A stretch of DNA of 64,000 nt from Catellatospora methionotrophica. GTDB taxonomy: Bacteria; Actinomycetota; Actinomycetes; Mycobacteriales; Micromonosporaceae. This document shows positions 36,951 to 61,397 of the stretch, one piece after another. The notes under the pieces are model-generated. The model ran no database searches, was not told the DNA's origin, and saw only the letters and a program-made list of their open reading frames with translations. The stretch spans positions 62,001-126,000 of the forward strand of contig NZ_JAAOTJ010000011.1 in the NCBI RefSeq assembly GCF_011297335.1, in the 5' to 3' direction. The translations under genes and the position numbers were made by a program. The stretch's first letter is position 1, and each line of letters begins with the position of its first letter.

Positions 36951-36988
36951 ATCCTATGTACGGGAAACGGCGTTTCGCTAGAGGAACC
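36951..36988 (-). promoter_or_regulatory. MFS promoter with IclR-type operator (site A)
   Basis: Minus-strand -10 TAGGAT (36956-36951), and upstream the 17-mer GTTTCGCTAGAGGAACC (36972-36988 on the plus strand), preceded by GGAAACG. The whole block matches 46085-46125 at about nine of ten positions, pointing to promoter duplication and common control. Confidence 0.65.
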
Positions 36989-37046
36989 GGCGCGCGATCA
37001 AGCGACGCACTCCCCCGAAACGCGCTGCGCCGCAGGTACGGCGGCC

Positions 37047-37052
37047 TAGCCT
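37047..37052 (+). promoter_or_regulatory. Leaderless -10 box for the FAD oxidoreductase
   Basis: TAGCCT 6 nt before the ATG at 37059. Confidence 0.5.
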
Positions 37053-37058
37053 GGGCGT

Positions 37059-38315
37059 ATGGCGGAACAGTGCGACGTGGCCGTCGTCGGCGCGGGCCTG
37101 GCCGGGCTGGTCGCCGCCCGGCGGATCACCGAGGCGGGACTGCGGGTGACCGTGCTGGAGGCGTCCGACGACATCGGCGGGAGGGTGCGCACCGACACCG
37201 TCGACGGCTTCCTGCTCGACCGCGGCTTCCAGACCATCTGCCCGGCGTACCCGGCGCTGCAGGAGGAGTGCGACCTGTCCGAGCTGCACCTGCGGCCGTT
37301 CACGCGCGGGGTCGCGGTGCACTGGGGCGGGCGCACCCACCAGCTGCGCCCCGGCCCGACCGCCGCGCTCGCGCTGGCCGCCGGGCTGGTGCCGCCCGCC
37401 GACGGGCTGACCCTGGTCGAACTGGCCGCCCGGGACACGCTCGGCTCGACGGCCGCGGTGCTGCGCCAGCCCGACCTGTCCACCCTGGACGAGCTCAAGG
37501 CGGCCGACGTGTCGCCGGTGACCGTGGACCGGGTGCTGCGGCCCTTCCTGGCCGGGGTGTTCCTGGAGGACCGGCTCGACACCTCGGGGCGCTTCTTCCA
37601 CCTCATGTGGCGCATGTTCCTGCGCGGCGGCGCGGCCGTGCCCGCCCAGGGCATGCAGGCCCTGCCCCGGCTGCTCGCGTCCCGGCTGCCGCTGGGCACG
37701 ATCCGCACCGGCGCGCGGGTGGACGCGCTGACCCCGCACGGCGTGGCGGTGCACGGCGGCGAGGAGATCGCCGCGCGGGCCGTCGTGGTGGCCACCGACG
37801 GGAACACGGCCGCCGCCCTGCTGCCCGGCCTGCGTACGCCCGCCTGGCACGGGGTGACGACGTTCTACCACGCGTGCTTCGGGGCCCCGTCGGCTCACCC
37901 GATGCTGACCGTGGACCCCGGCGGCGGCGGCCTGATCGCCAACACGGTCGTCATGACCGCCGCGGCCGCGGGCTACTCCACCGACGGCCGCGCCCTGATC
38001 GCCACGTCCACCCTGGACACCGTCACCCCGGTCGACGTGCTGCAACGGGCGATCCGGGCCCGCCTGTCGGTGCTGTACGAGGTGCCGACCGACGGCTGGC
38101 AGTTCCTGGACGCATACCGCATCCCGCACGCGCTGCCCGCGATGCCCGCCCCGCACCGGATGCGCCGCCCGGTGCGCCACGGCCCCGGCCGCTACGTCTG
38201 CGGCGACCACCGCGACACCAGCTCGATCCAGGGTGCCCTGGTCTCCGGCCGCCGCGCCGCCGACGCGGTGCTCGCCGACCTCGGCGCCCGCGTCTACGCG
38301 GCGGGCCGGGTCTGA
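37059..38315 (+). CDS. FAD/NAD(P)-dependent amine-oxidase-fold oxidoreductase
   Basis: 418 aa. VAVVGAGLAGLVAARRITE is the Rossmann FAD motif and LEASDDIGGRVRTD the second FAD-binding signature of the protoporphyrinogen oxidase/phytoene desaturase/monoamine oxidase superfamily. C-terminal YVCGDHRDTSSIQGALVSGRRAAD closes the FAD site. The substrate domain lies between. Substrate unknown; carotenoid-, amine- or porphyrin-type all remain possible. Leaderless and monocistronic, divergent from the MFS gene with which it shares the operator region, so it could belong to the same regulon. Confidence 0.88.
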   Translation: MAEQCDVAVVGAGLAGLVAARRITEAGLRVTVLEASDDIGGRVRTDTVDGFLLDRGFQTICPAYPALQEECDLSELHLRPFTRGVAVHWGGRTHQLRPGPTAALALAAGLVPPADGLTLVELAARDTLGSTAAVLRQPDLSTLDELKAADVSPVTVDRVLRPFLAGVFLEDRLDTSGRFFHLMWRMFLRGGAAVPAQGMQALPRLLASRLPLGTIRTGARVDALTPHGVAVHGGEEIAARAVVVATDGNTAAALLPGLRTPAWHGVTTFYHACFGAPSAHPMLTVDPGGGGLIANTVVMTAAAAGYSTDGRALIATSTLDTVTPVDVLQRAIRARLSVLYEVPTDGWQFLDAYRIPHALPAMPAPHRMRRPVRHGPGRYVCGDHRDTSSIQGALVSGRRAADAVLADLGARVYAAGRV

Positions 38316-38340
38316 CCCGCCCGGCTCCCGAACACCGGCG

Positions 38341-38382
38341 GTGCCGGGCGCGGACCCCCGATCGGCGGCTCGCACCCGGCAC
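38341..38382. terminator. Imperfect hairpin between convergent genes
   Basis: Arms 38341-38352 and 38371-38382 pair at 11 of 12 positions around 18 nt. Confidence 0.45.
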
Positions 38383-38393
38383 CCCTGTCTCAC

Positions 38394-39290
38394 CTAGGCG
38401 ACGCCCTCGAACACGACCTGTGGGTCGCCGGTCGCGCCAGGGCCCCACACGGCGTCGTACGCCGACGTGTCGCCCGCCAGGTAGTACCGGAACCAGTCGG
38501 TCAGCACCCGCCGCGTGATCTGCAGCTGGACCGCCCGGGTGATGGTGCCGCTGTCGCAGAACGCCGACGAGGTGTCGATGAAGCCGCAGTGGAAGCCGCC
38601 CTTGATGGTGCGCAGCTGCTTGGGCGCGGCCTTGCCGTTGTAGATCGGGCGCTGGTGGCTCGCGATCGGCGCGGTGCCGTCCTTCTCCCCCGCGACCAGC
38701 ATCATCGGCACCCGCACCGAGGCCGCGGCGGCCGCCGCCGACGGGTTGGTCTCGGCTGCCGCGAGGTTGGCCACCGTGGTCACCGCGGGGTTGCGGGACG
38801 CGGCCAGCACGCTCGCGCCGCCGCCCATCGAGTGGCCGGACAGGCCCAGCCTGGTGGTGACGATGTGCGCGTTGAACCGCGAGCCCGTCGTGGTGTCCTG
38901 CGCGACCAACCAGGTGAGCTGCGCGTTGAGGTCGTCGGCGAAGGCGCTGTGGCTCGGGAACAGGCTGCCCTGCGAGGTCGGCGCGGCCACCACGAAGCCC
39001 CACGAGGCCAGGTGCTGCATGGTGCTGTAGTACTTGCTGACGCTCTGCAGGAAGCCGTGCCCGAACGCGATGGCCGGGAAGCGCCCGGCGGCCACGGCCG
39101 CGTTCTGCCCCGCGGCGGCCGCCGGGTAGTAGATCCGGGCGCTGAAGGAGCGGCCGGAGGCGCTGACCGAGGCGTCGACATAGCCCACGGCGTACGCCCC
39201 GGGGGTGGAGCTGTCGGCCGCGGCGGGCGAGCCGAAGCCCGCCACCCCCGCGGTGATCAGTGCCAGCACGAGGATCGCTCGTCTGAACAT
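38394..39290 (-). CDS. Secreted alpha/beta hydrolase (cutinase/dienelactone-hydrolase-like)
   Basis: 298 aa from ATG at 39290 with AGAGGA 6 nt upstream. Signal peptide RRAILVLALITAGVAGFG, cleavage near PAAA. The triad can be placed: Ser in GLSGHSMGGG, Asp in AGEKDGTAP, His in KGGFHCGF; AFGHGFLQ forms the oxyanion turn. Overall like the extracellular polyester hydrolases (bacterial cutinase/lipase-1 group and chlorophyllase-like) that open ester bonds; a Cys pair may stabilise the C-terminus. A weaker copy of the regulon operator lies 47 bp upstream. Possible first step of the island outside the cell. Confidence 0.88.
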   Translation of the reverse strand: MFRRAILVLALITAGVAGFGSPAAADSSTPGAYAVGYVDASVSASGRSFSARIYYPAAAAGQNAAVAAGRFPAIAFGHGFLQSVSKYYSTMQHLASWGFVVAAPTSQGSLFPSHSAFADDLNAQLTWLVAQDTTTGSRFNAHIVTTRLGLSGHSMGGGASVLAASRNPAVTTVANLAAAETNPSAAAAAASVRVPMMLVAGEKDGTAPIASHQRPIYNGKAAPKQLRTIKGGFHCGFIDTSSAFCDSGTITRAVQLQITRRVLTDWFRYYLAGDTSAYDAVWGPGATGDPQVVFEGVA

Positions 39291-39336
39291 CGATATTCCT
39301 CTCATCGAGGGGATCTGGTTCGCACAGTGGAACACC

Positions 39337-39353
39337 GTTTCCCTCTACGAGAC
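39337..39353 (-). promoter_or_regulatory. Operator-like site D before the alpha/beta hydrolase
   Basis: On the minus strand GTCTCGTAGAGGGAAAC, matching consensus GTTTCGC-NNN-RGGAAAC except at positions 3 and 7. Confidence 0.45.
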
Positions 39354-39388: not shown

Positions 39389-40159
39389 TCAGGCCGCCCA
39401 GGACGGCTTGCGCCGTTGCAGGAACGCGGTCATACCCTCGACCGCCTCATCGGTGGCGAACAGCCGCGCCGACTCCTGCGCCAGCCGCGCCCCGTGTTCG
39501 TCCAGCGCGCGGCGCACCACAGCCGTGGTGAGCAGCTTGGACGCGGCCAGCCCCTGCGGCGACGCGGCGCGCAGCCCGTCCAGCACCTCGCCGAGCAGCG
39601 CATCCACGTCGCCCCCGGTCTGCGTGACGAGTCCGCAGGCGACGGCGGCCTCGGCGTCGAACACCTCGCCGGTCAGGTAGTAGCGCGCGGCGGCCCGCTC
39701 GGGCATCCGGGTGAGCGTCGTCAGCGAGATCACGGCTGGGGCCACGCCGAGCCTGGCCTCGGTGAACGCGAACCCGGACGCGGGCCCGGCCAGCGCGATG
39801 TCGCACGCGCCGAGCAGGCCGAGCCCGCCCGCGCGCACCTGCCCGTCGATCCGCGCCACCACCGGTTTCGGCAGCTCAACGATGGTGCGCAGCAGTGCCG
39901 ACAGCCGTGCGGTGCCCTCGGCTATCCCGCCGCCGGCGGCCTCGGTCAGGTCCGCTCCCGCACAGAACACCCGCCCCGTGTGGGTCAGCACCACGGCGCG
40001 TACGCCGGGGTCGGCCGCGGCGGCGGCCAGGGCGTCACCGAGCTGTGCGACCAGCGCCGACGACAGGGCGTTGCGGTTGTGCGGGGAGTCCAATGTCAGC
40101 GTCGCGACGGCGCGCTCGACCGTCGAGGTCACGAGGTTCAGCACGGCGTCCACCCTCAT
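39389..40159 (-). CDS. Enoyl-CoA hydratase/isomerase family protein
   Basis: 256 aa from ATG at 40159 (GTG at 40162 possible). Crotonase fold: LDSPHNRNALSSALV, the oxyanion-hole segments RVFCAGADL and VRAGGLGLLGACDIALAG, and FTEARLGVAPAVISL. The two catalytic Glu of true enoyl-CoA hydratases are not both evident; the GACDIA/ARLGVAP region keeps one acidic position. Membership is certain, the reaction is not (hydratase, isomerase or hydrolase). Divergent from the aldehyde dehydrogenase across a perfect 14-bp palindrome. Confidence 0.88.
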   Translation of the reverse strand: MRVDAVLNLVTSTVERAVATLTLDSPHNRNALSSALVAQLGDALAAAAADPGVRAVVLTHTGRVFCAGADLTEAAGGGIAEGTARLSALLRTIVELPKPVVARIDGQVRAGGLGLLGACDIALAGPASGFAFTEARLGVAPAVISLTTLTRMPERAAARYYLTGEVFDAEAAVACGLVTQTGGDVDALLGEVLDGLRAASPQGLAASKLLTTAVVRRALDEHGARLAQESARLFATDEAVEGMTAFLQRRKPSWAA

Positions 40160-40176
40160 CACCAGGCCGATAAAAG

Positions 40177-40190
40177 TCAAGCGCGCTTGA
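40177..40190. promoter_or_regulatory. Perfect palindrome TCAAGCGCGCTTGA, probable operator
   Basis: 14-bp perfect palindrome 18 bp upstream of the crotonase start and 72 bp upstream of the aldehyde dehydrogenase, in an AT-rich stretch. The form (CAAG-N4-CTTG) suits a TetR-type regulator of fatty-acid or sterol genes. No such regulator gene is in the window. Confidence 0.5.
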
Positions 40191-40249
40191 TTTATATTGC
40201 GCTGACCTGCGTTGATGCGGCTACCTCTTGCGTTTGCGGCGCGAAGGGC

Positions 40250-40255
40250 TACCGT
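40250..40255 (+). promoter_or_regulatory. Leaderless -10 box for the aldehyde dehydrogenase
   Basis: TACCGT 6 nt before the ATG at 40262. Confidence 0.5.
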
Positions 40256-40261
40256 GCACGC

Positions 40262-41764
40262 ATGGGCACCCCTCAGTCCCGTGGGGCCGACGCCACCCCG
40301 CTGGCACCGCTGTCCGGTGAGCCGCTGCCGCCCGTGCGGCAGTCCACTGCCGACGACGTCGCACTGGCCTACGTCCGCGCCCGCGCGGCCCAGACCGGCT
40401 GGGCGGCGCTGTCGCCGCGCGAGCGGGCCCGGCCGGTGCGCCGCTTCGCCGCGCTGCTGCTGCGCCGCCAGGACGAGATCCTCGACCTGGTGCAGCGCGA
40501 GACGGGCAAGGCCAGGCTGCACGCGCACGAGGAGGTGCTGGACGCGGCACTGGTCAGCACCTACTACGCCCGCCGCGCGCCGCGCCTGCTGCGGCCCCGC
40601 CGCCGGGGCGGCGCGCTGCCGCTGCTGACGTACGCGGTGGAGGTGCGCCATCCGCTCGGCGTGGTCGGGGTGATCACGCCGTGGAACTATCCGCTGGCGC
40701 TGGCCGTCACCGACATCGTGCCCGCACTGCTGGCGGGCAACGCCGTCGTGCACAAGCCGGACACGCAGACCGCCCGGACCGCCGCCTGGGCGCGTGACCT
40801 GATGACCGAGGCCGGCCTGCCGAGCGCCGTGTGGCAGCAGGTCGTCGGCGAGCCCGCCGACATCGGCGACGCGCTGCTCGACGGCGCGGACCACCTGTGC
40901 CTGACCGGTTCCACGGCCGCGGGCCGGGCGGTGGCGGCCCGCGCCGGGCGGCGGCTCATCGGCTGCTCGCTGGAGCTGGGCGGCAAGAACGCCCTGCTGG
41001 TACGCGCCGACGCCGACCTCGACCAGGCCGCCCACGCCGCCGTACGGGCCTGCTTCGCCAGTGCCGGGCAGCTGTGCCTGTCCGCCGAGCGCATCATCGT
41101 GCACGACAGCGTGCGCGACGCGTTCCTGGACCGCTTCCTGCCCCTGGTGCGCGGGCTGCGGCTGGGCGCCGACCTGGACTACGGCCCGCAGATGGGCTCA
41201 CTCAGCCTGCCCCGGGTGCTGGCCACGGTGCGCCGCCACGTCGAGGACGCGACCACGCACGGCGCGACGGTGCTGGCCGGTGGCGCGGCCCGCCCCGACC
41301 TGGGCCCGCTGTTCCACGAGCCGACCGTGCTGACCGGGGTCACCCCCGCCATGGCGGTGTACCGCGAGGAGACGTTCGGGCCGGTGGTGGCCGTGTACGG
41401 CGTGCCGGGCGACGACGCGGCCGTCGAGTTGGCCAACGACACCGAGTACGGGCTCAACGCGGCCGTGTTCAGCCGGGACACTCCGGCGGCGCGGGCGCTG
41501 GCGCGGCGGTTGCGGGCCGGGACGGTGAACATCAACGAGGGGTACGCGGCGGCGTACGCCTCGCACGACGCGCCCATGGGCGGCATGAAGTCGTCCGGGC
41601 TCGGCCGCCGCCACGGGACCGCCGGGCTGCTCGCGTACACCGCCGCCCAGACCATCGCCCAGCAGCGGCTGAACCTCACCCCACCGGCCGGTCCCGGGCA
41701 GGCCCGCTACGCCCGCGCGCTGACCGCCGCCGTGCGCGCGATGCAACTGCTCCACCTGCGCTGA
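40262..41764 (+). CDS. Aldehyde dehydrogenase (succinate-semialdehyde type)
   Basis: 500 aa, complete ALDH fold oxidising an aldehyde with NAD(P)+. VVGVITPWNYPLALAVTDI holds the oxyanion Asn; LTGSTAAGRAV is the coenzyme-binding turn; SLELGGKNALLV contains the general-base Glu; ASAGQLCLSAERI contains the nucleophilic Cys. YREETFGPVVAVY and GTVNINEGYAAAYA complete the pattern. Closest in style to succinate-semialdehyde and broad aliphatic aldehyde dehydrogenases. Operon with the acyl-CoA synthetase (20-bp gap), so the product acid is probably activated to a CoA thioester. Confidence 0.92.
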   Translation: MGTPQSRGADATPLAPLSGEPLPPVRQSTADDVALAYVRARAAQTGWAALSPRERARPVRRFAALLLRRQDEILDLVQRETGKARLHAHEEVLDAALVSTYYARRAPRLLRPRRRGGALPLLTYAVEVRHPLGVVGVITPWNYPLALAVTDIVPALLAGNAVVHKPDTQTARTAAWARDLMTEAGLPSAVWQQVVGEPADIGDALLDGADHLCLTGSTAAGRAVAARAGRRLIGCSLELGGKNALLVRADADLDQAAHAAVRACFASAGQLCLSAERIIVHDSVRDAFLDRFLPLVRGLRLGADLDYGPQMGSLSLPRVLATVRRHVEDATTHGATVLAGGAARPDLGPLFHEPTVLTGVTPAMAVYREETFGPVVAVYGVPGDDAAVELANDTEYGLNAAVFSRDTPAARALARRLRAGTVNINEGYAAAYASHDAPMGGMKSSGLGRRHGTAGLLAYTAAQTIAQQRLNLTPPAGPGQARYARALTAAVRAMQLLHLR

Positions 41765-41784: not shown

Positions 41785-43524
41785 ATGACCCCCACCACCC
41801 TGTGCGCGGCGTTTCAGGCCACCGCCGCCGTCGCGCCGGACGCCGTCGCGCTCGGGGCGTTCGGCTCCGCTGTCGAGATCACCTGGCGCGGGTACGCCGC
41901 CCGGGTGCGCGCCATCGCGGCCGGTCTGGCGGGTGCCGGTGTGCACCGGGGGCAGACGGTGGCGCTGATGCTGGCCAACCGGCCCGAGTTCCACCTCGCC
42001 GACACGGCCGCGATCCACCTCGGTGCCGTGCCGTTCTCGATCTACAACACCTCGTCGCCGTCGCAGATCGCCTACGTGCTCGGCAACGCCCAGGCCCGCG
42101 TCGTGATCTGCGAGCAGCAGTACGCGGCACGCATCGTCGCCAGCGGGGCCGCCTACGAGCACCTGGTCTGCGTCGACGGCAGGCCCGACGGCACGGTCAC
42201 CCTCGACGAGCTGTGCGCGATGGCCGAGCCCGGTTTCGACTTCGACGCCGCGTGGCAGGCCGTGCAGCCCGACGACCTGCTGACCCTGATCTACACCTCG
42301 GGCACCACCGGCCCGCCGAAGGGCGTCGAGCTGACCCACGCCAACCTGCTGGCCGAGGCCGACGCGGTGACTGCGCTGTTCCCGCTGGAACGCGCCGACC
42401 ACGGGCTGTCGTACCTGCCCGCCGCGCACGTAGCCGACCGGCTGGCCAGCCACTACCTGCAACTGCTGTACGGCGCGCGGATCACCTGCCTGGCCGACCT
42501 GACCCAGCTCGGCGCGGCCCTGGCGCAGGTGCGCCCGACGTACTGGGCGGCGGTGCCGCGGGTGTTCGAGAAGATGCGCGCCCGCATCACCGACGCGCTG
42601 CTCGACGCGCCCGCGCCCCGGCGGTGGGCGTTCAGCCTCGCGCTGCGCTGGGGCCGGGGCAGGCGCGGCGGGCCGGGTGCGCGGGCGCTGGCGCGGATCG
42701 CGGACCGGCTCGTGCTCGGCCGGGTCCGGCAACGGCTGGGCATGGACCGGATGCGCTGGGCGATGTGCGGGGCGGCCGCGCTGCCCGTGCCGGTGCTGGA
42801 GTTCTTCCTGGACCTAGGGCTGCCCGTGTGCGAGATCTGGGGCATGTCGGAGACCTGCGGCGCGAGCACCCTCAACCCGCCCGGCGCGATCCGCCCCGGC
42901 ACCGTCGGCATCCCCGCCCCCGGCGTGCTGGTGCGCCTGGCCGACGACGGCGAGCTGCTGATCCGCGGCCCGCTGGTGACCCGCGGCTACCACCGCGACC
43001 CGGCCCGCACCGCCGACGCGTTCGACGCCGAAGGCTGGCTGCACACCGGGGACGTGGCCACGATCGACGGGGACGGCTACGTCTCCATCGTGGACCGCAA
43101 GAAGGAACTGATCATCAACGCGGCGGGCAAGAACATGTCCCCGGCCAACATCGAAGGCGTCGTGAAGTCGGCGTGCGCGCTGATCGGAGCGCTGGTCGTG
43201 GTCGGCGACGGGCGGCCGTACAACGTGGCTCTGGTCGTGCTCGACCCGGAGGCGGTGGCGTCGCACACCGCGCGGCACGGCGCGGATACGGTCGCCGAGG
43301 CCGTCGCGGCGGGGGTCGCGGCGGGCAACGCCGAGCTGTCCCGGGTCGAGCAGATCAAGCGGTACGAGGTCCTCGACGCGGTGTGGGCGCCGGGTGGCGA
43401 CGAGCTGACGCCGACGCTGAAACTGCGCCGGGCCGCGATCGTGCGCAAGTACGCCGACGTGCTCGAACAGCTCTACCGCTCACCCGAAAGAATCTCGCAA
43501 AGCGCTCAGAAAGCAGAAAAATAA
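41785..43524 (+). CDS. Long-chain acyl-CoA synthetase (AMP-forming)
   Basis: 579 aa; ATG at 41785 with GGAGAGGA about 8 nt upstream. LIYTSGTTGPPKGVELTHAN (from about residue 168) is the P-loop of ANL enzymes; WGMSETCG binds ATP, GWLHTGDVATIDGDGYVSI is the hinge Asp region, and IINAAGKNMSPANIEGVVK carries the AMP-contacting and catalytic Lys region. Bacterial FadD15-like members of this layout activate fatty or aromatic acids. It follows the aldehyde dehydrogenase and probably takes its product. Cytoplasmic or membrane-associated. Confidence 0.92.
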   Translation: MTPTTLCAAFQATAAVAPDAVALGAFGSAVEITWRGYAARVRAIAAGLAGAGVHRGQTVALMLANRPEFHLADTAAIHLGAVPFSIYNTSSPSQIAYVLGNAQARVVICEQQYAARIVASGAAYEHLVCVDGRPDGTVTLDELCAMAEPGFDFDAAWQAVQPDDLLTLIYTSGTTGPPKGVELTHANLLAEADAVTALFPLERADHGLSYLPAAHVADRLASHYLQLLYGARITCLADLTQLGAALAQVRPTYWAAVPRVFEKMRARITDALLDAPAPRRWAFSLALRWGRGRRGGPGARALARIADRLVLGRVRQRLGMDRMRWAMCGAAALPVPVLEFFLDLGLPVCEIWGMSETCGASTLNPPGAIRPGTVGIPAPGVLVRLADDGELLIRGPLVTRGYHRDPARTADAFDAEGWLHTGDVATIDGDGYVSIVDRKKELIINAAGKNMSPANIEGVVKSACALIGALVVVGDGRPYNVALVVLDPEAVASHTARHGADTVAEAVAAGVAAGNAELSRVEQIKRYEVLDAVWAPGGDELTPTLKLRRAAIVRKYADVLEQLYRSPERISQSAQKAEK

Positions 43525-46080: not shown

Positions 46081-46086
46081 GGCCGC

Positions 46087-46124
46087 ATCCTATGCTTTGG
46101 AAACGCTGTTTCGCTAGAGGAACC
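46087..46124 (-). promoter_or_regulatory. CoA-transferase promoter with IclR-type operator (site B)
   Basis: Minus-strand TAGGAT (46092-46087) exactly 6 nt before the GTG at 46080, a leaderless start. The 17-mer GTTTCGCTAGAGGAACC (46108-46124) covers the -35 position and also lies just before the divergent lyase start at 46134, so one bound regulator could control both. Confidence 0.65.
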
Positions 46125-48589: not shown

Positions 48590-48606
48590 GTTTCGCACAC
48601 TGTAAC
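48590..48606. promoter_or_regulatory. IclR-type operator (site E)
   Basis: GTTTCGCACACTGTAAC, three differences from the full consensus GTTTCGC-NNN-RGGAAAC in the right half. It lies between the divergent hydantoinase (48569) and CoA-transferase (48647) starts. Confidence 0.55.
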
Positions 48607-48634
48607 GAGGTTTCCTTTTTGAGGGTAGGCCGTG

Positions 48635-53722: not shown

Positions 53723-53788
53723 GGGCGTGGCTCCTCTCCGAAGGGGATGGAGCCCAGAAGCTATCCACGCCCCTCCCACGGAGTCGAC

Positions 53789-53801
53789 GGTTTTCGATAC
53801 T
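53789..53801 (-). promoter_or_regulatory. Shared motif AGTATCGAAAACC, copy 1
   Basis: 13 bases (minus strand) 67 bp upstream of the metzincin-lectin start, identical to a site 82 bp upstream of the glycosidase-lectin gene. Confidence 0.4.
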
Positions 53802-53885
53802 CGTAGGCGCGGCGCCCGGCGGCTGGACCCGCACGGCCTCACCGGGTGAGGATGTGCGGCATCGGACGAGGAGGGACGGCCCCTG

Positions 53886-54569: not shown

Positions 54570-54576
54570 ATCACCG

Positions 54577-54635
54577 GACCTGCCCGGCACCTGTGCGTAT
54601 CTCGACCAGTGATCCGCACAGGTGCCGGGCAGGTC
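54577..54635. terminator. 21-bp hairpin between convergent genes
   Basis: Arms 54577-54597 and 54615-54635 pair perfectly around 17 nt. The arm resembles that of the hairpin at 35449 (CCCGGCA-NN-TGTGCGTA). Confidence 0.7.
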
Positions 54636-54651: not shown

Positions 54652-55617
54652 TCAGTCCCGGGTGAGCAGGCGGCGGGCGGAGCGGACGACGGCCTCGTCG
54701 ACGAGGCGGCCGTGGGCGTCGAGACAGACCCCGGAACCGTCCCGCAGCGCCTGTTCGTGGCGGCCCACCAGGTCGCGGGCGGCGGCCAGCTCCGCCTCCG
54801 TCGGCGTGAAGACCTCATGCACCACGGACAACTGCGCCGGGTGTATGCAGGCCCGCCCGCGAAAGCCCAGCCGCTTCAGCGCCACCGTGGAATCCCGCAG
54901 CGCGTCGAGGTCGCGAAAGTTCACCGACACCGGCGCGACAGGCGGCGCGATCCCAGCGGCCGCGCTGGCCAGCACAGCCTGCGAACGCGCCCACAGCAGC
55001 TCCCGCTCGTCCGGCCCGAGCGTCACCCCGAGGTCCGCCGCCAGATCGGCCTCCCCGAGCTGCAGCCGCACGACCCTGGGCCCCCGGGCGATCTCCGGCG
55101 CGGCCAGCACCGCCGCCGCCGACTCCAGCAGCGGCACCACCTTCACCGACCCCACCCCCAACCCCGCCGCCCGCTCCAACTCCCCCAGCACCCCGTCCAG
55201 CGCCGCCACCTGCGCCACCGACTCCACCTTCGCCACACACAACCCCGCCAGCCCCGCCCCCACCACCGCAGCCGCGTCGATATGCCCTATCTCCCCCGGA
55301 TTGATCCGCACCCACACCCGCGGCCGCCCCGCTTCTCCCGCGGAGATCGCTGTTTCGGGTCCAAAGGCGTGGTCCAACCCCGCTCTTGGACCCGAAACAG
55401 CGATCATGCCCGCCGCGCCGTCTCCCCCGACCGCACCGCCGCCACTGGCCGCCGCCCCCGCACCGGCCAGGAACGCCGCCACAGCCGCCCTGGCCGCGTC
55501 CTTGCCGGACGGGGGTACGGCGTCCTCCAGGTCGACGATCAGCGCGTCCGCCCCCACCGTCAGCGCCTTGGCCAGCTTCGCCGAGTTGTCGCCGGGCACG
55601 TACAGGTAGGACCTCAT
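54652..55617 (-). CDS. CitE-like (HpcH/HpaI) acyl-CoA lyase with internal insertion
   Basis: 321 aa, about 45 longer than usual. SYLYVPGDNSAKLAKAL and ALIVDLEDAVP (metal-binding Glu-Asp) open the barrel; RVWVRINPGEIGHIDAAAV is the RxN substrate strand; CVAKVESVAQVAAL has the second acidic ligand; FRGRACIHPAQL closes it. Members cleave or form malyl-, citramalyl- or citryl-CoA. Residues about 50-95 are an Ala/Gly-rich insert absent from the family; part of it (about 72-91) is encoded by a dispersed palindrome. The catalytic elements flank it and seem intact. Last gene of a four-gene operon; with CoA-transferase and MaoC this is the set used for itaconate or mesaconate breakdown. Confidence 0.87.
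   Translation of the reverse strand: MRSYLYVPGDNSAKLAKALTVGADALIVDLEDAVPPSGKDAARAAVAAFLAGAGAAASGGGAVGGDGAAGMIAVSGPRAGLDHAFGPETAISAGEAGRPRVWVRINPGEIGHIDAAAVVGAGLAGLCVAKVESVAQVAALDGVLGELERAAGLGVGSVKVVPLLESAAAVLAAPEIARGPRVVRLQLGEADLAADLGVTLGPDERELLWARSQAVLASAAAGIAPPVAPVSVNFRDLDALRDSTVALKRLGFRGRACIHPAQLSVVHEVFTPTEAELAAARDLVGRHEQALRDGSGVCLDAHGRLVDEAVVRSARRLLTRD
55345..55405. repeat. Dispersed palindrome, GTTTCGGGTC family, copy 2, inside the citE-like gene
   Basis: Arms 55345-55364 and 55386-55405 are perfect 20-bp complements around 21 nt. It is read through in frame without a stop. Confidence 0.8.
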
Positions 55618-55865
55618 CCGATCGCCCCCTTGCCCGCCAGCAGCGCGCAGTCGACGGCGGCCTCGGACGCGTGCGCCGTGACCATGCCCGCCTCCAGGTC
55701 CACCCGGTGCCCGGCGTCGGCGCGGGGCGCGGCCCAGTGCACGGGCAGCCGCGACGACTGCACCGTCATGGCCATGTCGGCCGCCTTGAGCCGGATCGCC
55801 TGGAGGAAGGCCGCGGCGTGGGCGTAGCCGCCGACCGCGGGCAGGTGGATCGTCAGGCCAGGCAT
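55614..55865 (-). CDS. Small protein of the eroded operon, unrecognised
   Basis: 83 aa. ATG at 55865 has AAGGAG 9 nt upstream; it overlaps the preceding MmgE/PrpD stop by 13 bp and the CitE start by ATGA. Those signals, rather than homology, argue that it is translated. Sequence: IHLPAVGGYAHAAAFLQAI near the start, Ala-rich helices, DCALLAGKG near the end. No membrane segment, no known motif. It could be a small subunit or a leftover of a larger gene like its two upstream neighbours. Confidence 0.55.
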   Translation of the reverse strand: MPGLTIHLPAVGGYAHAAAFLQAIRLKAADMAMTVQSSRLPVHWAAPRADAGHRVDLEAGMVTAHASEAAVDCALLAGKGAIG

Positions 55866-56722
55866 GTGACCAGCTCCTTCACGTCGGGTGCGGTGGGCAG
55901 CGCGGCCAGTGCCGCGAGCACCGCGTCGGCCCGTTCGCCGAGATCGGCGCGGGCCGGGGCCCGCGGCAGCACGTCCAGTCGGGGGTCGTCGTGCCCGCCG
56001 CCGCACCGGGGCACCCTGCCGTGGGCCAGCGGCGCACGGATGCGGCCGGGCGCGGCGGCGGCGAGCCGGGCGGCCACCACGGCCGCGTGGGCCGCGAAGC
56101 CCGGGTGCGGCTGCTCGGTCGAGCCACCGGTGTGCAGGAACTCCAGCAGCCCCGACGAGCCGCTGGCGGCGATGCCCGCGGCGTGCGCGGTGGTCGCGGC
56201 GTCCAGCCCGAGCAGCCGCGCCGCGACCACGGCCCCGGCGATCGTGCCGCACGCCGAGGTCGCATGGACCCCCCGCGCGTGGAACGCGTGCGGCACCGCC
56301 GCACCGAGCCGACAGGCGACCACCAGCCCCACCGTGTACGCGGCCAGCATCTCCTCACCGCTCGCCCCGGTCTGCTCGGCCAGCGCGAGCGCCACCGGCG
56401 CGGTCACCGCCGTCGCGTGCACCAGTCCAGTGGCTTGGGTGTCGTCGAAGTCGAGCGCGTGCATCGCCACCGCATTGCCGAACGCCGCCGCAGCGGCCCC
56501 CACCCGCACCGGCCCCTCGCCATCCGCCCCGCCGAGGAGGGTCGATTCAGGTGGGCCGCCGAGGCTGAGGGCGACGCGGGCGGCGGCGAGGGCTTCGGTG
56601 CGGCGTACGCCGGCGATCAGGCAGCCAAGGCCGTCGAGGAGGCGGTGGCGGGCGGCGGTGCGCACGTGGTCGGGGATGTCCGCCCAGGTGAGGCCTGCGG
56701 CCCAGGTGATCAGGTCAGGCAC
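55853..56722 (-). CDS. Shortened MmgE/PrpD family protein lacking domain II
   Basis: 289 aa against about 450 for the family; GTG at 56722 with GGGAG upstream. Domain I is well kept: MHALDFDDTQATGLVHATAV, HARGVHATSACGTIAGA, GLLEFLHTGGSTEQPHPGFAAH. After residue about 225 the alpha/beta domain II with its conserved Lys/His region is missing and the sequence passes to LAALPTAPDVKELVTCLA, which looks like the family's normal C-terminal end. I read this as a large internal in-frame deletion. A full-length paralogue is at 50703. Activity doubtful. Confidence 0.8.
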   Translation of the reverse strand: MPDLITWAAGLTWADIPDHVRTAARHRLLDGLGCLIAGVRRTEALAAARVALSLGGPPESTLLGGADGEGPVRVGAAAAAFGNAVAMHALDFDDTQATGLVHATAVTAPVALALAEQTGASGEEMLAAYTVGLVVACRLGAAVPHAFHARGVHATSACGTIAGAVVAARLLGLDAATTAHAAGIAASGSSGLLEFLHTGGSTEQPHPGFAAHAAVVAARLAAAAPGRIRAPLAHGRVPRCGGGHDDPRLDVLPRAPARADLGERADAVLAALAALPTAPDVKELVTCLA

Positions 56723-56879
56723 AGCGGGCTCCCGCCGCGCGCAGCCGCGCGCCGGTCAGGCCCAGTACGATCACCATGGACAGCCCGGAGTCGACGATGA
56801 GCCGGCCTACGGGGCCTTCCTCGCGAAGGTGCTGGCAGACGTTACCCACGGTGAAGTCCTCGCAATAACGGCCGACCAT
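56715..56879 (-). pseudogene. MaoC-family acyl-CoA hydratase remnant
   Basis: 54 codons from ATG at 56879 (or 60 from 56897) instead of about 150. MVGRYCEDFTVGNV is the typical start of MaoC dehydratases of the mesaconyl/itaconyl-CoA hydratase group, and LIVDSGLSMVIVLGLTG matches a later segment of the same fold. The part between, with the catalytic Asp-His hot-dog motif, and the C-terminal half are absent. It overlaps the next start by 8 bp, so the operon layout survives. A functional micro-protein cannot be excluded. Confidence 0.6.
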
Positions 56880-56922: not shown

Positions 56923-56939
56923 GTTTCTCACAGCGAATC
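56923..56939 (-). promoter_or_regulatory. IclR-type operator (site F)
   Basis: Minus-strand GATTCGCTGTGAGAAAC, two or three differences from consensus GTTTCGC-NNN-RGGAAAC. It lies between the MaoC-remnant operon and the divergent membrane-protein gene. Confidence 0.55.
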
Positions 56940-56956
56940 AGTGTTTCCATTACTCG

Positions 56957-57664
56957 GTGGGACCGCATACGCATGGCTGGTGGATTCTGCTCCACATCGT
57001 CCTCTTCGTCTTCTGGCTCGGCGGTGACCTGGGCGTGTTCTGGTCGAGCCGCTTCGTGCTCCGACCCGACCTCACCCCCGCCGCCCGCGCCACCGCCCTG
57101 AAGATCATGGGCGGCCTCGATCTCGGGCCGAAGATCTGCCTCGTGCTGTTCCTGCCCAGCGGCGTCACGCTGATGGCCCTGGAACCGCACGGCGCGACCG
57201 TGTACGGCGTCAACCCGTTCGGCTGGCCGGTCGTCGTCGCCGTGTGGCTGTTCGCCACCGCGTGGCTCGCCGCGACGATCACCGACCACCACCACCCCGG
57301 CCGGCGACCCTGGGTGCGCCGCGCCGACTGGACGATCCGGCTGACCCTGATCACGGCGCTGGGCGCCACCGCGATCTACACGCTGGTCGCGGACCAGCCG
57401 TTCGGGGTCGACACCAATCCGCGCTGGCTGGGCGGGAAGCTGCTGCTCTACACGGTGGCCATCGGGTGCGGGCTGGGCATCCGGCTGACCCTGCGTACGT
57501 TCGGCCCGGCGTTCGGCGCGCTGATGACCACGGGGTCCACGCCGGAGGTGGAGAGCGCCCTGAAGCGGTCGATCGACGGGTGCCTGCCGTACGTGTGGGG
57601 GATCTGGGGAAGTGTGCTGGCGGCGGCCGCGCTGGGGGTGCTCAAGCCGTTCGCGGAGCTGTAG
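56957..57664 (+). CDS. Multi-pass membrane protein, possible heme protein
   Basis: 235 aa from GTG at 56957; an in-frame TTG at 56921 would overlap the operator, so the later start is preferred. Five or six hydrophobic segments (WWILLHIVLFVFWLGGDLGV, VVVAVWLFATAWLAATI, and others). Histidines in GPHTHGWWILLHIV and ATITDHHHPGR, and a C-terminal LGVLKPF segment, recall small integral proteins such as the membrane part of PuuD-type urate oxidases, but I cannot assign it. Divergent from the eroded operon and under the same operator. Confidence 0.7.
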   Translation: MGPHTHGWWILLHIVLFVFWLGGDLGVFWSSRFVLRPDLTPAARATALKIMGGLDLGPKICLVLFLPSGVTLMALEPHGATVYGVNPFGWPVVVAVWLFATAWLAATITDHHHPGRRPWVRRADWTIRLTLITALGATAIYTLVADQPFGVDTNPRWLGGKLLLYTVAIGCGLGIRLTLRTFGPAFGALMTTGSTPEVESALKRSIDGCLPYVWGIWGSVLAAAALGVLKPFAEL

Positions 57665-57793: not shown

Positions 57794-59404
57794 TCAGCGC
57801 CAGTTCTGGTTGGACTGGACGGGGTTGCCGCAGGTCCAGATGATCATTTGGGTGCCGTTGGCGGTGCCCCAGCCGTCGGCGTCGAGGCATTTGCCGGACT
57901 GCTGGTTGACGAGGGTGCCGTCGGGGTTGACGGTCCAACGCTGGGCGCCGTTGCCTAGGCAGGTCCAGAGCTGGACGAGGGCGCCGTTGGCCGTGCTGCC
58001 GCCGGAGACGTCGAGGCACTTGCCGGAGTTGGGGTTGAGCAGGGAGCCGTTGGGCTCGACGCGCCACTTCTGGGCGGGGTTGTTGAGGCAGTCCCAGAGT
58101 TGGACCTTCGCGCCGTCGGTGGTGCGGCCGCCGGAGATGTCCAGGCAGCGGTGGGAGCCGACGTTGACGAACGTGCGCTCGGTCGTGCCGCCGCCGGTGC
58201 AGGTCGTGGTGAAGGCCCGGTCGGTGAGGCCGGCACAGAAGGCGCTCTTCGCGCCGGTGTACCGCGACAGGCGGCCGTCGACGAACCAGGTCGAGTTGAC
58301 CGGGAAGTCGAAGCTGCCGTCGTCGATGCCGTCCCAGCCGTAACGGAAGTCCAGGTCGATGTAGGTCGCGGCCTTGATCACGTTGCTGAGGTCGTACGTG
58401 CCCGAGGTGTTCGGCAGGGGGCCGACGTAGTTCATCAGGCTGAACAGCCGCCGTACCCAGGTCTCGCCGCGTGCGGCCTCCAGGCCGACGGTGTCGCCGC
58501 CGTTGTCGGTGAAGTTCATCATCCCGGACTCCGACACGATCATCGGCTTGCCGTGGTCCTTGGCGAACTTCATCATCTTGAGCACGTTGCCGTCGTGGTC
58601 CCAGTTCCTCCAGACCGCGGTGTCGTTGCCGTTGGCGTCCTTGCCGATGTACGCGTTGCGGCACTGCAGGGCGGCGGTGTCGTAGTTCTGCGGCGGCGTG
58701 CCGTTGTAGAGGTAGCCGTTGTCGTAGATCGGCATGCACAGCTCGTGCGCGAACACCGACACGCCCACCCAGTCGGTGACCGCGTCACCGGGATACAGCT
58801 TCTCGTACTCGCCGCGCACCGGGTGGTACACGTAGGTCACGTTGTCCGGCACGGTGCCCGCGTCGATCAGGCTGCGCAGCCGGGCGAAGGCGTTGCGGTA
58901 GGAGCTGCAGCTCGCGTCGGTGCAGTGGTAGAAGCTCGACACCTCGTAGTCCAGGCGCAGGAAGAACTTCGCCTGCGGGTACGCGTTCATGAAGTTGATC
59001 AGGTTCGTGAACTGGGCGGCGTGCTGGCCGTTGGCGATCTCCTGGGTGACCGCGCGGGAGCGGGCCGCCTTGGCGTTCTCGTCACCGCCGTTGAAGCCGG
59101 GCGGGTTGTCCTTCCAGCTGACGCCGATCTGGATCATCTTGCCCTGGTGGGCGAGCCAGGTGGCGTGGTCGCGGTGGCCGTTGTTGACCCAGGTGCCGGA
59201 CTTGACCTCGTAGTAGACCGAGCCTCCGGCGGGCGGCTGGGCGAACGAGGTGTAGTCGTTCCAGGAGGCCTGGGTGGACTGGCCGATGAACAGCAGCCGC
59301 CCGTTCGCGGGGGCGAAGGTGGCGGCGGTCGCCGGGGCGGCGACGCCGGTCAGGGCGACCGTGGCGAGCAGGGCGCAGGCCAGGCCGGTGGCTAGACGTC
59401 TCAC
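57794..59404 (-). CDS. Secreted GH26-like glycosidase with ricin-B lectin domain
   Basis: 536 aa from GTG at 59404 (GGAAGG about 10 nt upstream). Signal peptide LATGLACALLATVALTGVAA. Residues about 30-400 look like a clan GH-A barrel of the GH26 beta-mannanase type: LLFIGQSTQASWNDY, FFLRLDYEVSSFYHC (candidate acid/base Glu), WVGVSVFAHEL, and KPMIVSESGM (candidate nucleophile Glu). The C-terminal about 130 residues form a CBM13 trefoil with three QxW lobes (HRCLDISGG, GKCLDVSGG, GKCLDADGW). It would cut mannan or a related polysaccharide outside the cell. The lectin part is close to that of the metzincin-like protease. Confidence 0.85.
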   Translation of the reverse strand: MRRLATGLACALLATVALTGVAAPATAATFAPANGRLLFIGQSTQASWNDYTSFAQPPAGGSVYYEVKSGTWVNNGHRDHATWLAHQGKMIQIGVSWKDNPPGFNGGDENAKAARSRAVTQEIANGQHAAQFTNLINFMNAYPQAKFFLRLDYEVSSFYHCTDASCSSYRNAFARLRSLIDAGTVPDNVTYVYHPVRGEYEKLYPGDAVTDWVGVSVFAHELCMPIYDNGYLYNGTPPQNYDTAALQCRNAYIGKDANGNDTAVWRNWDHDGNVLKMMKFAKDHGKPMIVSESGMMNFTDNGGDTVGLEAARGETWVRRLFSLMNYVGPLPNTSGTYDLSNVIKAATYIDLDFRYGWDGIDDGSFDFPVNSTWFVDGRLSRYTGAKSAFCAGLTDRAFTTTCTGGGTTERTFVNVGSHRCLDISGGRTTDGAKVQLWDCLNNPAQKWRVEPNGSLLNPNSGKCLDVSGGSTANGALVQLWTCLGNGAQRWTVNPDGTLVNQQSGKCLDADGWGTANGTQMIIWTCGNPVQSNQNWR

Positions 59405-59485
59405 GGTGGTACACCTTCCGTGCGGGAGTGTCCCGGGGAGCGGGATGGTGTCGCCAGGCTAAGAAGGGCGCGGCAGAATACCGCT

Positions 59486-59498
59486 GGTTTTCGATACT
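59486..59498 (-). promoter_or_regulatory. Shared motif AGTATCGAAAACC, copy 2
   Basis: Upstream of the glycosidase-lectin gene and followed on the plus strand by TTCGAA, forming part of a longer dyad (CTTCGAAA). Identical over 13 bases to 53789-53801. Confidence 0.4.
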
Positions 59499-59628
59499 TC
59501 GAAATATGATCACCTGAAGTGATCAAGCGACTGCGCATCGACGCCGCAAATGCAAGGTGCAAACGTCTAAATAAGACGGTCAGATTCTTGTCTGTTTCGC
59601 AGGCTGGAACGACGTCGCTGGATACGCA

Positions 59629-59634
59629 TAAGAT
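59629..59634 (+). promoter_or_regulatory. Leaderless -10 box
   Basis: TAAGAT 7 nt before the ATG at 59642. The rest of 59405-59628 holds the shared motif and no gene. Confidence 0.5.
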
Positions 59635-59641
59635 CGCGCGC

Positions 59642-60418
59642 ATGTTCATGGATGTGTTGCCGATCCTGGCGTCGGCGGCCGAGGAGCAGCCCCCCGCGCT
59701 CAGCGTGGCGCTGGCCGTGGAGGACTTCGCCCCCACGCTGCTGGCCTTCGCCGGGTTCCTGCTGCTGGCCCCGTCCGCGCTCGGCCGGATCGGCGCCGTC
59801 CTGATGGGTGCGGGCGGTGCGGCGAAGTCGACGTGGAAGCTGCTGCACGCGGCCTGGTCGATCGACGTCAACTGGCTCGACGATCTGCTCTTCCCGCTGC
59901 TGGCGGCGGGCGGGCTGCTGCTGGCGCTGTCGCTGCACGGATCGCTGCGCTGGTGGCGCTGGCCGCTGCTGCTGATCGGCGCGGGCGTGGCGACGCTGGC
60001 GGTGCAGTCCCATTCGGTGCAGCCCGCGTTCGTCTTCGCGACCGCGATCGTCATCTGGATCAGCGTGCTCGGCGCGATCCGCGCCTGGAAGCACGGCAAC
60101 GCGCTGGCCGCCGGACTGTTCCCGGTGAGCGTGCTGGCCGTGATCGCGCTGGTGCCGCTGCGCGGCCACGCGGCCAGCGACGCGCTGGCCTTCCAGTGGG
60201 TGCAGCAGGGCATGAACACGATGGCCCAGGGCATCTTCTTCGTCGCCGCGCTGCTCACCTACCGCGCGGCGAAGGGCAAGGGCAAGGACTTCTCCGCCGC
60301 CGACACCGTGCCGCGCCAGTGGGCGCCCGCCCCCGACTACGACGGCACGCGCCGCTACGACCCGGCGCGCGGCGGCGACCGGTACGAATCGCAGGGCGGC
60401 CGCCGCAGGCGGATCTAG
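59642..60418 (+). CDS. Polytopic membrane protein of unknown function
   Basis: 258 aa from the leaderless ATG at 59642, earlier in-frame starts being unsupported. Six hydrophobic segments (LLAFAGFLLLAPSALGRIGAV, LFPLLAAGGLLLALSL, LLLIGAGVATLAVQ, FVFATAIVIWISVLGAI, AAGLFPVSVLAVIALVPL, GIFFVAALLTYRAAKG) and a polar C-terminal tail rich in Arg, Asp and Gly ending GGRRRRI. No motif. The last bases are shared with a short tandem repeat that continues into the end of iclR. Confidence 0.7.
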   Translation: MFMDVLPILASAAEEQPPALSVALAVEDFAPTLLAFAGFLLLAPSALGRIGAVLMGAGGAAKSTWKLLHAAWSIDVNWLDDLLFPLLAAGGLLLALSLHGSLRWWRWPLLLIGAGVATLAVQSHSVQPAFVFATAIVIWISVLGAIRAWKHGNALAAGLFPVSVLAVIALVPLRGHAASDALAFQWVQQGMNTMAQGIFFVAALLTYRAAKGKGKDFSAADTVPRQWAPAPDYDGTRRYDPARGGDRYESQGGRRRRI

Positions 60419-60465
60419 CCGTCAGGCGGCCGCCGCAGGCGGACCTGGCCCGTCAGGCGGCCACG
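60392..60465. repeat. Tandem duplication at the iclR 3' end
   Basis: A 30-31-bp unit (60392-60422 and 60423-60452, about 26 identical bases) followed by a partial third copy that is the iclR stop region (60453-60465). Each unit repeats GGCGGCCGCCGCAGGCGGA. Confidence 0.6.
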
Positions 60466-61265
60466 TAGCCGAGCTGCTCGGAGATCCGGGCCGCCGCCGC
60501 CATCAGTTCCTGGGCGTTGCCGGACTGCTCGGGCTTGAACCGGGCGGCCGGTCCGGCGACGCTGAGCACGGCGACGACGTGGCCGTCGTGGTCGAACACC
60601 GGCGCGGCGATCGACGCGGCCCCGGCCTGCCGCTCGCCGAGCGACGTCGCGTAGCCGCGCTTGCGGATCGCCGCCAGCTCCTTGCGCAGCTTCGCCGGGT
60701 CGGTGACGGTCTTGTCGGTCAGCGGCTGCAGCGGGTGCCGGTCGAGATAGGCGTCGACCTCGCTGTCGGGCAGGAAGGCCAGGAACGCCTTCGACGACCC
60801 GCCCGCGTGCAGCGGGTACGGGATGCCGAGCGTGACCTCCATGCGCAGCTCCTGGTCGGGCACGACCTGGTCGACGTAGAGGCGGGTGTCGCCCCGCCGC
60901 AGCGACAGCGTCGCCGTCTCACCGGTCGCCTCGGCGAGCTGGCGCAGCTCGGGTGCGGCCATCGCGCGCAGGTCGGTGCGGGCCAGGTAGGCCCGGCCCA
61001 GCGAGACCGCGGCGTGGCCCAGGGCGTATCGCCGCGTCACCGGGTCGACCGTGATCAGGTCCCGGCTGCGCAGCGCGGTGAGGATGCGGTGCACCGCGGC
61101 CTTGGTCAGCCCCAGCGCGGTCGCGATCTCGGTGACGCCGAGGTCGGGGTGTCCGCTGCGGCCGAAGTAGAGCAGCACGTCCATGGCCCGCTCGACGGCG
61201 GCGATGGAGCGGGACTGGCTGTCGTCGTCAGTGGTGACGGTCGACTTCGCAGCGGCAGTGGGCAC
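60453..61265 (-). CDS. IclR family transcriptional regulator
   Basis: 270 aa. N-terminal winged helix: VERAMDVLLYFGR, GVTEIATALGLTKAAVHRILTALRSRDLITVD; then a GAF-like ligand domain with LYVDQVVPDQELRMEVTLG, YPLHAGGSSKAFLAFLP, RKRGYATSLGERQAGAASIAAPVFD and the closing AVLSVAGPAARF. IclR proteins bind a carboxylic or aromatic metabolite and repress or activate catabolic operons through GC/AT dyads. Site C, a good copy of the operator found five more times between 36.9 and 57 kb, lies in its divergent promoter region, so it is the best candidate for the regulon's controller. Confidence 0.93.
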   Translation of the reverse strand: MPTAAAKSTVTTDDDSQSRSIAAVERAMDVLLYFGRSGHPDLGVTEIATALGLTKAAVHRILTALRSRDLITVDPVTRRYALGHAAVSLGRAYLARTDLRAMAAPELRQLAEATGETATLSLRRGDTRLYVDQVVPDQELRMEVTLGIPYPLHAGGSSKAFLAFLPDSEVDAYLDRHPLQPLTDKTVTDPAKLRKELAAIRKRGYATSLGERQAGAASIAAPVFDHDGHVVAVLSVAGPAARFKPEQSGNAQELMAAAARISEQLGYVAA

Positions 61266-61380
61266 GGGTCCTCCTGTGAGCGCGGACGGTCGCCAGTGTA
61301 GATCCAGCCGTGCGCGGCGCGCAGAGGCCGCACGGGCGTTGACAGGGGCGCGGCCAAGTCGTTACCTTCACGGCAACAGC

Positions 61381-61397
61381 GTTTCCTAATGCGAAAC
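61381..61397. promoter_or_regulatory. IclR-type operator (site C)
   Basis: GTTTC-N7-GAAAC; minus strand GTTTCGCATTAGGAAAC, a full match to consensus GTTTCGC-NNN-RGGAAAC. It lies between iclR (61265) and the flavin-reductase operon (61412), immediately before the GGAGGG ribosome site of the latter, so binding would block that transcript. Confidence 0.65.

Follow-up and report, generated by a model that had tools for sequence, protein, structure and literature searches.

A conserved multi-box operator links an IclR-type regulator to a dispersed actinobacterial regulon with RCCR/bilin reductase-like genes

TtgV, a repressor of the IclR family, acts as a tetramer on a multi-box operator and controls an efflux pump, unlike the catabolic genes considered here. 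Passages of a survey of the family (PMC8222616) describe group 1 (GKTYCRYW3-4RYGRAMC) and group 2 (TGRAACAN1-2TGTTYCA) dyads, report three-box sites of alternating direction in 32 predicted orthologous groups (PcaU, PobR and HmgR type) and tandem sites 18-22 nt apart, and mention the asymmetry of the TtgV tetramer. Here we analyse a 64,000-nucleotide stretch of the Catellatospora methionotrophica genome (positions 62001-126000 of contig C3, hereafter the window; the genome comprises 8.39 Mb in 56 contigs), which carries six copies of an operator and a gene for an IclR-family protein, iclR (60453-61265, minus strand). The regulator is an additional member of the three-box operator type published in that survey (PMC8222616): the window sites show the same alternating boxes combining group 1 and group 2 dyads, and they differ in that two of the six have four boxes and that the regulon contains genes like those of red chlorophyll catabolite reductase (RCCR) and bilin reductases, and WxL proteins. 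The words chlorophyll, CaiB, PrpD and monooxygenase are absent from the main text of the survey. With TtgV, the regulator shares the protein family (match to 2xrn, 6.4e-21).

Chlorophyll is degraded on a huge scale every year, and the plant steps that lead to phyllobilins are known. To our knowledge, the bacterial genes that finish chlorophyll breakdown in soil are not generally known, and judged by titles and abstract openings no paper found describes such genes; nearby topics are reportedly how bacteria transform sedimentary porphyrins, the pyrrolic products of chlorophyll degradation in plants and herbivores, and biliverdin production by Streptomyces atratus. The plant PAO/phyllobilin pathway likewise brings together a Rieske oxygenase, an RCCR-family reductase and an ester hydrolase. 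The genes described here differ from it in being bacterial and IclR-linked, in a Rieske protein without the PaO domain and in the presence of further catabolic genes, and in a structural alignment the RCCR-like protein (model of the Rhizocola orthologue) is 20-22% identical to plant RCCR. In passages of PMC10151467, RCCRs form an outgroup of the bilin reductases, with Schekmanbacteria sequences placed there; actinobacteria are not mentioned in its main text. The pre-PcyA clusters of heterotrophic bacteria treated in the same passages (PMC10151467) have in common with our genes the occurrence of the bilin reductase superfamily in non-photosynthetic bacteria. Those clusters make bilins, and their haem oxygenase, V4R proteins and bilin-binding globins had no counterpart among the Pfam matches of the scanned regulon genes. 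The operator class is already known, and the content of the regulon appears undescribed: judged from titles and abstract openings, no paper found deals with an IclR- or RCCR-linked chlorophyll pathway of bacteria.

A preliminary description of the window had reported a 17-bp sequence in six copies at 36972, 39337(-), 46108, 48590, 56923(-) and 61381(-), placed in promoter regions and never inside a gene. All six were located again at these positions and on these strands, with positions 1, 4, 5, 6, 13, 15 and 17 of the 17-mer invariant in every copy, and with refined gene starts each of them lies between divergently transcribed genes; if the longest open reading frames are taken instead, those beginning at 39335(-), 46068(+) and 56921(+) run into operator sites. 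The 17-mer is one pair of adjoining boxes, and a third box had been overlooked. Read in one orientation, all six sites are 26-bp operators of three alternating boxes, A GGAAAC-N3-B GTTTCS-N5-C SGAAAC, that combine the N3 and N5 dyads, with some deviations. At 39337 and 61381 a fourth box on the opposite side completes a symmetric 37-mer. A profile of 277 site contexts, chosen by the matrix of this 26-mer, agrees with the three-box arrangement.

Operator 1 (36963-36988, plus strand; GGAAAC-ggc-GTTTCG-ctaga-GGAACC) lies between the genes for an MFS transporter (-) and an FAD oxidoreductase (+). Operator 2 (39317-39353; GGTTCG-N5-TGGAAC-N3-GTTTCC-N5-CGAGAC) separates an alpha/beta hydrolase gene (-) from an aldehyde dehydrogenase (ALDH)-ligase pair (+), operator 3 (46099-46124, plus) a CoA-transferase gene (-) from that of an HMGL-like lyase (+), and operator 4 (48590-48615, minus) an amidohydrolase gene (-) from a CoA-transferase/cyclase/PrpD run (+). 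Operator 5 (56923-56948, minus) stands between a PrpD/CitE remnant operon (-) and the gene of a 235-aa protein (+), and operator 6 (61361-61397; GTTACC-N5-GGCAAC-N3-GTTTCC-N5-CGAAAC) between iclR (-) and the flavin reductase/monooxygenase genes (+). In line with the -10 box said to be shared by two copies, the -10-like elements TATGTA (36955-36960, plus) and TATGCT (46091-46096, plus) lie 8 nt before operators 1 and 3, respectively. The same arrangement recurs at the promoters of the CN-hydrolase gene that opens the RCCR operon treated below: each of the 27 examined was preceded, at no more than 150 bp, by a site scoring 18 bits or higher, and in 18 of the 27 a TANNNT element stood 8-9 nt before the operator. 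Placed in this way, the operator would overlie the transcription start, in keeping with repression.

The extent to which these repeats could be chance matches within promoter DNA was assessed in the window and beyond. The 17-mer pattern is moderately unusual, with 15 window matches at up to three mismatches (three of the six sites tallied on both strands) against 6.2 expected, a number reached by none of 100 shuffles. What favours chance is the 15-mer half of the motif, GGAAACNNNGTTTCC, which at up to three mismatches gave 13 matches in the window and 12.2 in shuffles, with no excess. In a leave-one-out scoring with the 26-mer matrix across the 64 kb, on the other hand, each held-out site (20.3-29.2 bits) ranked above all other places, overlapping registers of the six sites excepted. 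Single-mismatch genome matches of GGAAACNNNGTTTCC at C3:21231, on C4, at C5:172399 and on C21 scored below 10 bits with the matrix and were set aside; a further match, at C15:127754, reached 10.9 bits.

A sequence model built from the six window sites alone was then scanned against the whole genome, with 150 of 506 first-look candidates scored. Random hits across the genome had been named beforehand as the outcome that would speak against a regulon; the scan returned only 11 hits at E<=10, and they are not random. Eight of them are the six window sites (39337 counted twice) and C15:126764, which had never been given to the model and was the top-ranked hit of the scan, and the remaining three mark two further operator places, C5:82614/82626 and C15:98313, both between divergent genes. 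The extent of 25 kb previously assigned to the regulon is consequently too small, since the scan carries it beyond that region and onto other contigs.

The operator is conserved in relatives of the strain. Among 41 genomes, the strain's own included, sites at E<=0.2 were found in all 12 with an IclR orthologue at least 85% identical and in none of the other 29; the IclR proteins of ten same-genus relatives are 89-99% identical. The operator was also followed in the best 80 loci of 105 relatives with IclR proteins 69-99% identical, which span Catellatospora, Hamadaea, Actinoplanes, Micromonospora, Nocardia, Actinomadura, Nonomuraea and Streptosporangium, among others. A score of 20 bits or higher was reached by 242 sites, 216 of them in noncoding DNA (159 kb) and 26 in coding DNA (1.415 Mb), and sixty column-permuted matrices gave a mean of 0.3 and a maximum of 4 on the same loci. 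The other gene starts of these loci were unusable as a control because regulon genes contaminate them (210 of 1144 had a site of at least 18 bits). Upstream of iclR itself, a site of at least 18 bits was present in 69 of the 80 loci and one of at least 20 bits in 52. The whole-genome scan, the conservation across 80 loci in several genera and the presence/absence pattern in 41 genomes refute the chance explanation, to which we give practically no weight.

The genes adjoining sites of at least 18 bits were tallied in 11 relatives and 73 named loci, 84 genomes or loci in all; L067-L073, seven loci from Catellatospora that are probably duplicates of genomes already included, were excluded. Each locus covers about 20 kb or less, and the counts are therefore lower bounds: at least 68 for iclR, 58 for the flavin reductase, 46 for the 235-aa protein, 37 for the CN-hydrolase opening the RCCR operon, 24 for CoA-transferase 2, 23 each for a Dabb-domain protein and the amidohydrolase, 16 for CoA-transferase 1, 15 for MaoC, 12 each for the HMGL lyase and a secreted-looking chlorophyllase-family hydrolase, and 9 for a WxL protein, with 4 more nearest to the G348 relative. 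In addition, 25 site clusters had no gene start within 250 bp, and 57 adjoining entries (some genes counted twice) were unclassified, ten of which were hand-picked for annotation.

The iclR product carries both domains of its family, HTH_IclR (46.1 bits, cut-off 22; 4e-12) and IclR_C (161.2 bits, cut-off 24; 2.4e-47), and is the likely regulator. The operators could instead belong to another regulator, of the IclR type or not, as the motif fits the consensuses given for the family in general in passages of the survey (PMC8222616) and five further IclR homologues are encoded in the genome (E<=1e-5). Those five, however, are only 26-37% identical, the presence of sites agrees with that of a close orthologue of this IclR in 41 of 41 genomes, and an operator lies before this very gene. 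On these grounds another binder was rejected as very improbable. The earlier proposal of an IclR-type operator regulon is well supported by the operator upstream of iclR, its recurrence in 69 of 80 loci, the 12 of 12 against 0 of 29 genomes and the published box type; from genetic linkage and co-occurrence, this IclR probably binds the operators.

The preliminary description had also missed how large the regulon is, and its theme, the RCCR/bilin reductase-like genes. The site at C15:126764 precedes a CN-hydrolase gene followed by one for an RCC_reductase protein (PF06405), and by G002 orthologues the operon continues with an alpha/beta hydrolase, a Rieske oxygenase, u237, u316, a short-chain dehydrogenase/reductase (SDR), u219 and an arylmalonate-decarboxylase-type protein. 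The corresponding operator lies 11 kb from iclR in G002. The RCCR protein of the strain passes the PF06405 gathering cut-off (55.5 bits against 24.9) and misses that of the ferredoxin-dependent bilin reductases, PF05996 (18.8 bits against 31). A profile built from the RCCR-like proteins matched Arabidopsis RCCR (6.7e-12) and a bilin reductase (3.4e-8). The Rhizocola orthologue was modelled with AlphaFold (pLDDT 78, pTM 0.81), and Foldseek placed the model nearest to RCCR (2zxk, 1.5e-12, TM about 0.7), then to phytochromobilin synthase, PebB and PcyA. By sequence and modelled fold, the protein belongs to the RCCR/bilin reductase superfamily.

A second, divergent member is encoded in the same operon. 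u237 matched RCCR by BLASTP (25% identity at 1.9e-7, an E-value computed within a set of 62 proteins) and in a profile-profile comparison (probability 93%); four of seven members of its family matched PF06405 at E<=10 (best E 4.6e-4), and the protein of the strain stayed below the cut-off with 13.2 bits. Phytochromobilin synthase, at E 0.55, was the sole PDB match of u237 up to E 10. These similarities point to u237 as a divergent RCCR paralogue. The u316 profile gave no meaningful match in the PDB.

PF06405 was found in 44 of 50 IclR-bearing genomes tested (hand-picked among those of the 80 loci), against 15 of 394 in a class-wide sample. In all 44 the RCCR gene was within 20 kb of iclR at a median of 10.5 kb, measured from contig coordinates with both genes assumed to be on one contig. 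In G417 and G348 a same-strand run takes in genes for a flavin reductase, a monooxygenase, two ALDHs, a PrpB-like lyase, an FAD hydroxylase and RCCR, and also for a hydrolase, a Rieske protein, u237, u316, an SDR, u219 and an Amdase. As these genes, those for the flavin monooxygenase and RCCR included, are consecutive on one strand there, they probably belong to one pathway. Separately, L205 and L206 (G043 and G071), from actinobacterial assemblies of 1.4 and 1.7 Mb, hold two or three PF06405 genes near homologues of Rieske and u237 or u316.

Taken together, the paired bilin reductase-type proteins, the Rieske oxygenase, the ester hydrolases, the import genes and the downstream enzymes fit the uptake and mineralisation of a linear tetrapyrrole. 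We propose, with a probability of about 0.6, that IclR represses a dispersed catabolic regulon for a linear tetrapyrrole, most likely chlorophyll or its breakdown products. IclR would bind the three- and four-box operators, in which the boxes alternate, the spacers are N3 and N5, and boxes A and C are 20 bp apart. These operators lie on divergent promoters, directly behind the -10 element; the protein would occupy them probably as dimers or a tetramer, and would repress its own gene and the regulon until a pathway compound is bound. Uptake may fall to the WxL surface proteins, together with an ABC transporter, and to the MFS protein, and ester hydrolysis by the chlorophyllase/PETase-type hydrolases. 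The linear tetrapyrrole would then be oxygenated and reduced by the Rieske oxygenase, the RCCR/bilin reductase-like proteins and the flavin monooxygenases, and its fragments mineralised by the amide and imide hydrolases, the CoA-transferases, PrpD, PrpB and the HMGL and CitE lyases.

The operator-linked genes outside the window bear on uptake and hydrolysis. At C15:98313 the site marks a WxL/WxLIP/ABC cluster that was reached by the operator search alone, and homologues of its WxL, WxLIP, ABC and u444 proteins (41-64% identical) are encoded between two RCCR genes of G348. WxL/WxLIP surface proteins and an ABC transporter, accompanied in G348 by a neocarzinostatin-family protein, are tied to RCCR clusters (L220:8509-14283 and L203:8666-19793) and possibly form a pigment uptake system. 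At C5:82614/82626 a chlorophyllase-family hydrolase gene stands beside that of an MFS transporter; against the PF07224 cut-off of 26, this hydrolase scored 25.4 bits scanned as a protein and 27.2 scored with its neighbours. The genome has six PF07224 matches at E<=0.001, of which two, the best included, are operator-linked. Four of the ten operator-adjacent genes picked in other genomes encode chlorophyllase-type hydrolases, three over the PF07224 cut-off and one just under, and the rest a sortase, a phytanoyl-CoA-dioxygenase-family protein, a thiolase, a photolyase, a TANGO2 protein and one protein without a family.

Alternatively, the same regulon might be directed at bilins that derive from haem (biliverdin or bilirubin) and not at chlorophyll. 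In favour of this, the RCCR-like protein has the fold of bilin reductases that act on biliverdin, and the genome holds a haem oxygenase gene (C8:11404). Biliverdin, however, has no ester for chlorophyllase-family hydrolases to cleave, and such hydrolases are operator-linked at two places in the genome of the strain and in the four picked genes elsewhere; contig C8, moreover, carries no operator at E<=10 in the whole-genome scan. Chlorophyll is favoured over haem because of the chlorophyllase-type hydrolases and the lack of an operator hit on the haem oxygenase contig, and we regard the haem route as unlikely. It is also rather unlikely that the substrate is no tetrapyrrole at all and that RCCR-fold proteins were recruited to another plant compound (a polyester, N-heterocycle or aromatic) within a general aromatic/imide regulon. 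The resemblance of the window hydrolase to PET hydrolases and cutinases and the generic nature of the lower-pathway enzymes agree with that idea, whereas the characterised members of the RCCR/bilin reductase superfamily reduce linear tetrapyrroles, the operon has two superfamily paralogues, and in some genomes PF06405 is represented by two or three genes.

Several observations weigh against a tetrapyrrole regulon under this operator. The window hydrolase matches PETase better (81.5 bits) than Chlorophyllase PF07224 (42.8 bits, cut-off 26), and among solved structures it comes closest to cutinases and PET hydrolases. The Rieske oxygenase (G002 orthologue) is of the VanA_C type, nearest to SxtDIOX/NdmA; a pheophorbide a oxygenase has Rieske and PaO domains, and at E<=0.001 Rieske and VanA_C alone were found, so that the protein was rejected as a true pheophorbide a oxygenase. 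The Staygreen Mg-dechelatase had no match in the genome, in a search whose control likewise matched nowhere. RCCR was unseen by the search in six of the 50 IclR genomes, one of which (L100) does hold a homologue. No clear operator (below 18 bits) lies upstream of iclR in 11 of the 80 loci. G011 and G012, with IclR homologues at 53-62%, had no site at E<=0.2 (with the 26-mer matrix, two 20-bit matches lie beside one of the two G012 homologues), and in the clusters of G417, G348, G043 and G071 no site reached 17 bits with the matrix, so that the operator sequence is not shared universally. In the scans, no more than 150 first-look candidates were scored per genome, and several conserved proteins are without an assigned function. 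As the hydrolase family is broad and the Rieske protein lacks the PaO domain, the substrate is put forward with moderate confidence.

Among the window genes around the operators, to the left lie the MFS transporter gene (35521-36903, minus), the gene of an FAD amine-oxidase-type oxidoreductase (37059-38315, plus) and that of the alpha/beta hydrolase (38394-39290, minus; PETase PF12740 8.8e-23, Chlorophyllase PF07224 3.8e-11), for which a longer start at 39335, the form scanned, is possible. They are followed on the plus strand by the genes of a 782-aa protein with a C-terminal aldehyde dehydrogenase (39416-41764), whose approximately 290 N-terminal residues have no family match, and a FadD11-like acyl-CoA ligase (41785-43524; 733.8 bits, below the NCBIfam cut-off of 950). 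Next come genes for an isochorismatase-family hydrolase (44267-44887, minus), a family III CoA-transferase (44887-46080, minus), the HMGL-like lyase (46134-47018, plus), the amidohydrolase (47142-48530, minus), for which a hydantoinase or imidase function is a guess, a second family III CoA-transferase (48647-49843, plus), a putative cyclase PF04199 (49843-50706, plus) and MmgE/PrpD (50814-52187, plus). The genes for the flavin reductase (61406-62404, plus) and an acyl-CoA-dehydrogenase-fold protein, probably a two-component flavin monooxygenase (62416-63714, plus), lie to the right of operator 6. Genes for lectin-domain proteins (52256-54238 and 57794-59404) sit between the regulon operons.

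Left of operator 5, the preliminary description had seen a MaoC/PrpD/CitE operon. Its PrpD/CitE part stands as the remnant of a longer operon (54652-56722, minus) with a CitE-like lyase gene (54652-55617), a 3' piece of an acyl-CoA dehydrogenase gene and a PrpD piece (55853-56722). By comparison with G002, two deletions of about 4.2 kb and 2.5 kb have left the acyl-CoA dehydrogenase and PrpD genes truncated (55614-56751). As a consequence of these losses MaoC is absent as an intact counterpart of the G002 genes: none was found among the called window genes, the short reading frames at 54105-54590 and 54320-54562 being outside the Pfam scan. The operon behind the intact operator seems to be decaying in this strain. 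On the other side of the same operator is the gene of the 235-aa protein (56957-57664, plus), which is helical, probably a membrane protein, present in 65 of the 80 loci, and has many invariant residues, among them H13, D24 and H111. It had no Pfam match over the cut-off, no NCBIfam match, nothing below E 0.001 in a fold search and, as a profile, none among PDB sequences up to E 1. A weaker candidate operator (59594-59619, minus; 14.5 bits) lies upstream of a 258-aa gene and was absent among the whole-genome scan hits; weak sites of this kind, at 15-16 bits, are present in G001, G002, G007 and G010. The protein encoded behind it, beside iclR (59642-60418), is related (48% identical) to one encoded in an RCCR operon (L037:9056-9715), and both are family-less.

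The regulon may even represent a complete aerobic bacterial chlorophyll pathway under one IclR repressor in many soil actinobacteria, from capture and import through phytol removal, ring opening and stepwise reduction to the conversion of fragments into central metabolites, a reading that we hold only tentatively. Phytol would be removed by the hydrolase encoded divergently from the ALDH-ligase pair at operator 2 and activated to acyl-CoA, the ring would be opened by the bacterial Rieske oxygenase and the product reduced stepwise by the RCCR-type enzymes, and the pyrrole and maleimide fragments would be converted to central metabolites. The conserved operator is a genome-wide tag for members of the pathway, including proteins without a known family, and with it the question of how soil bacteria finish chlorophyll breakdown becomes directly testable in cultivable actinomycetes.

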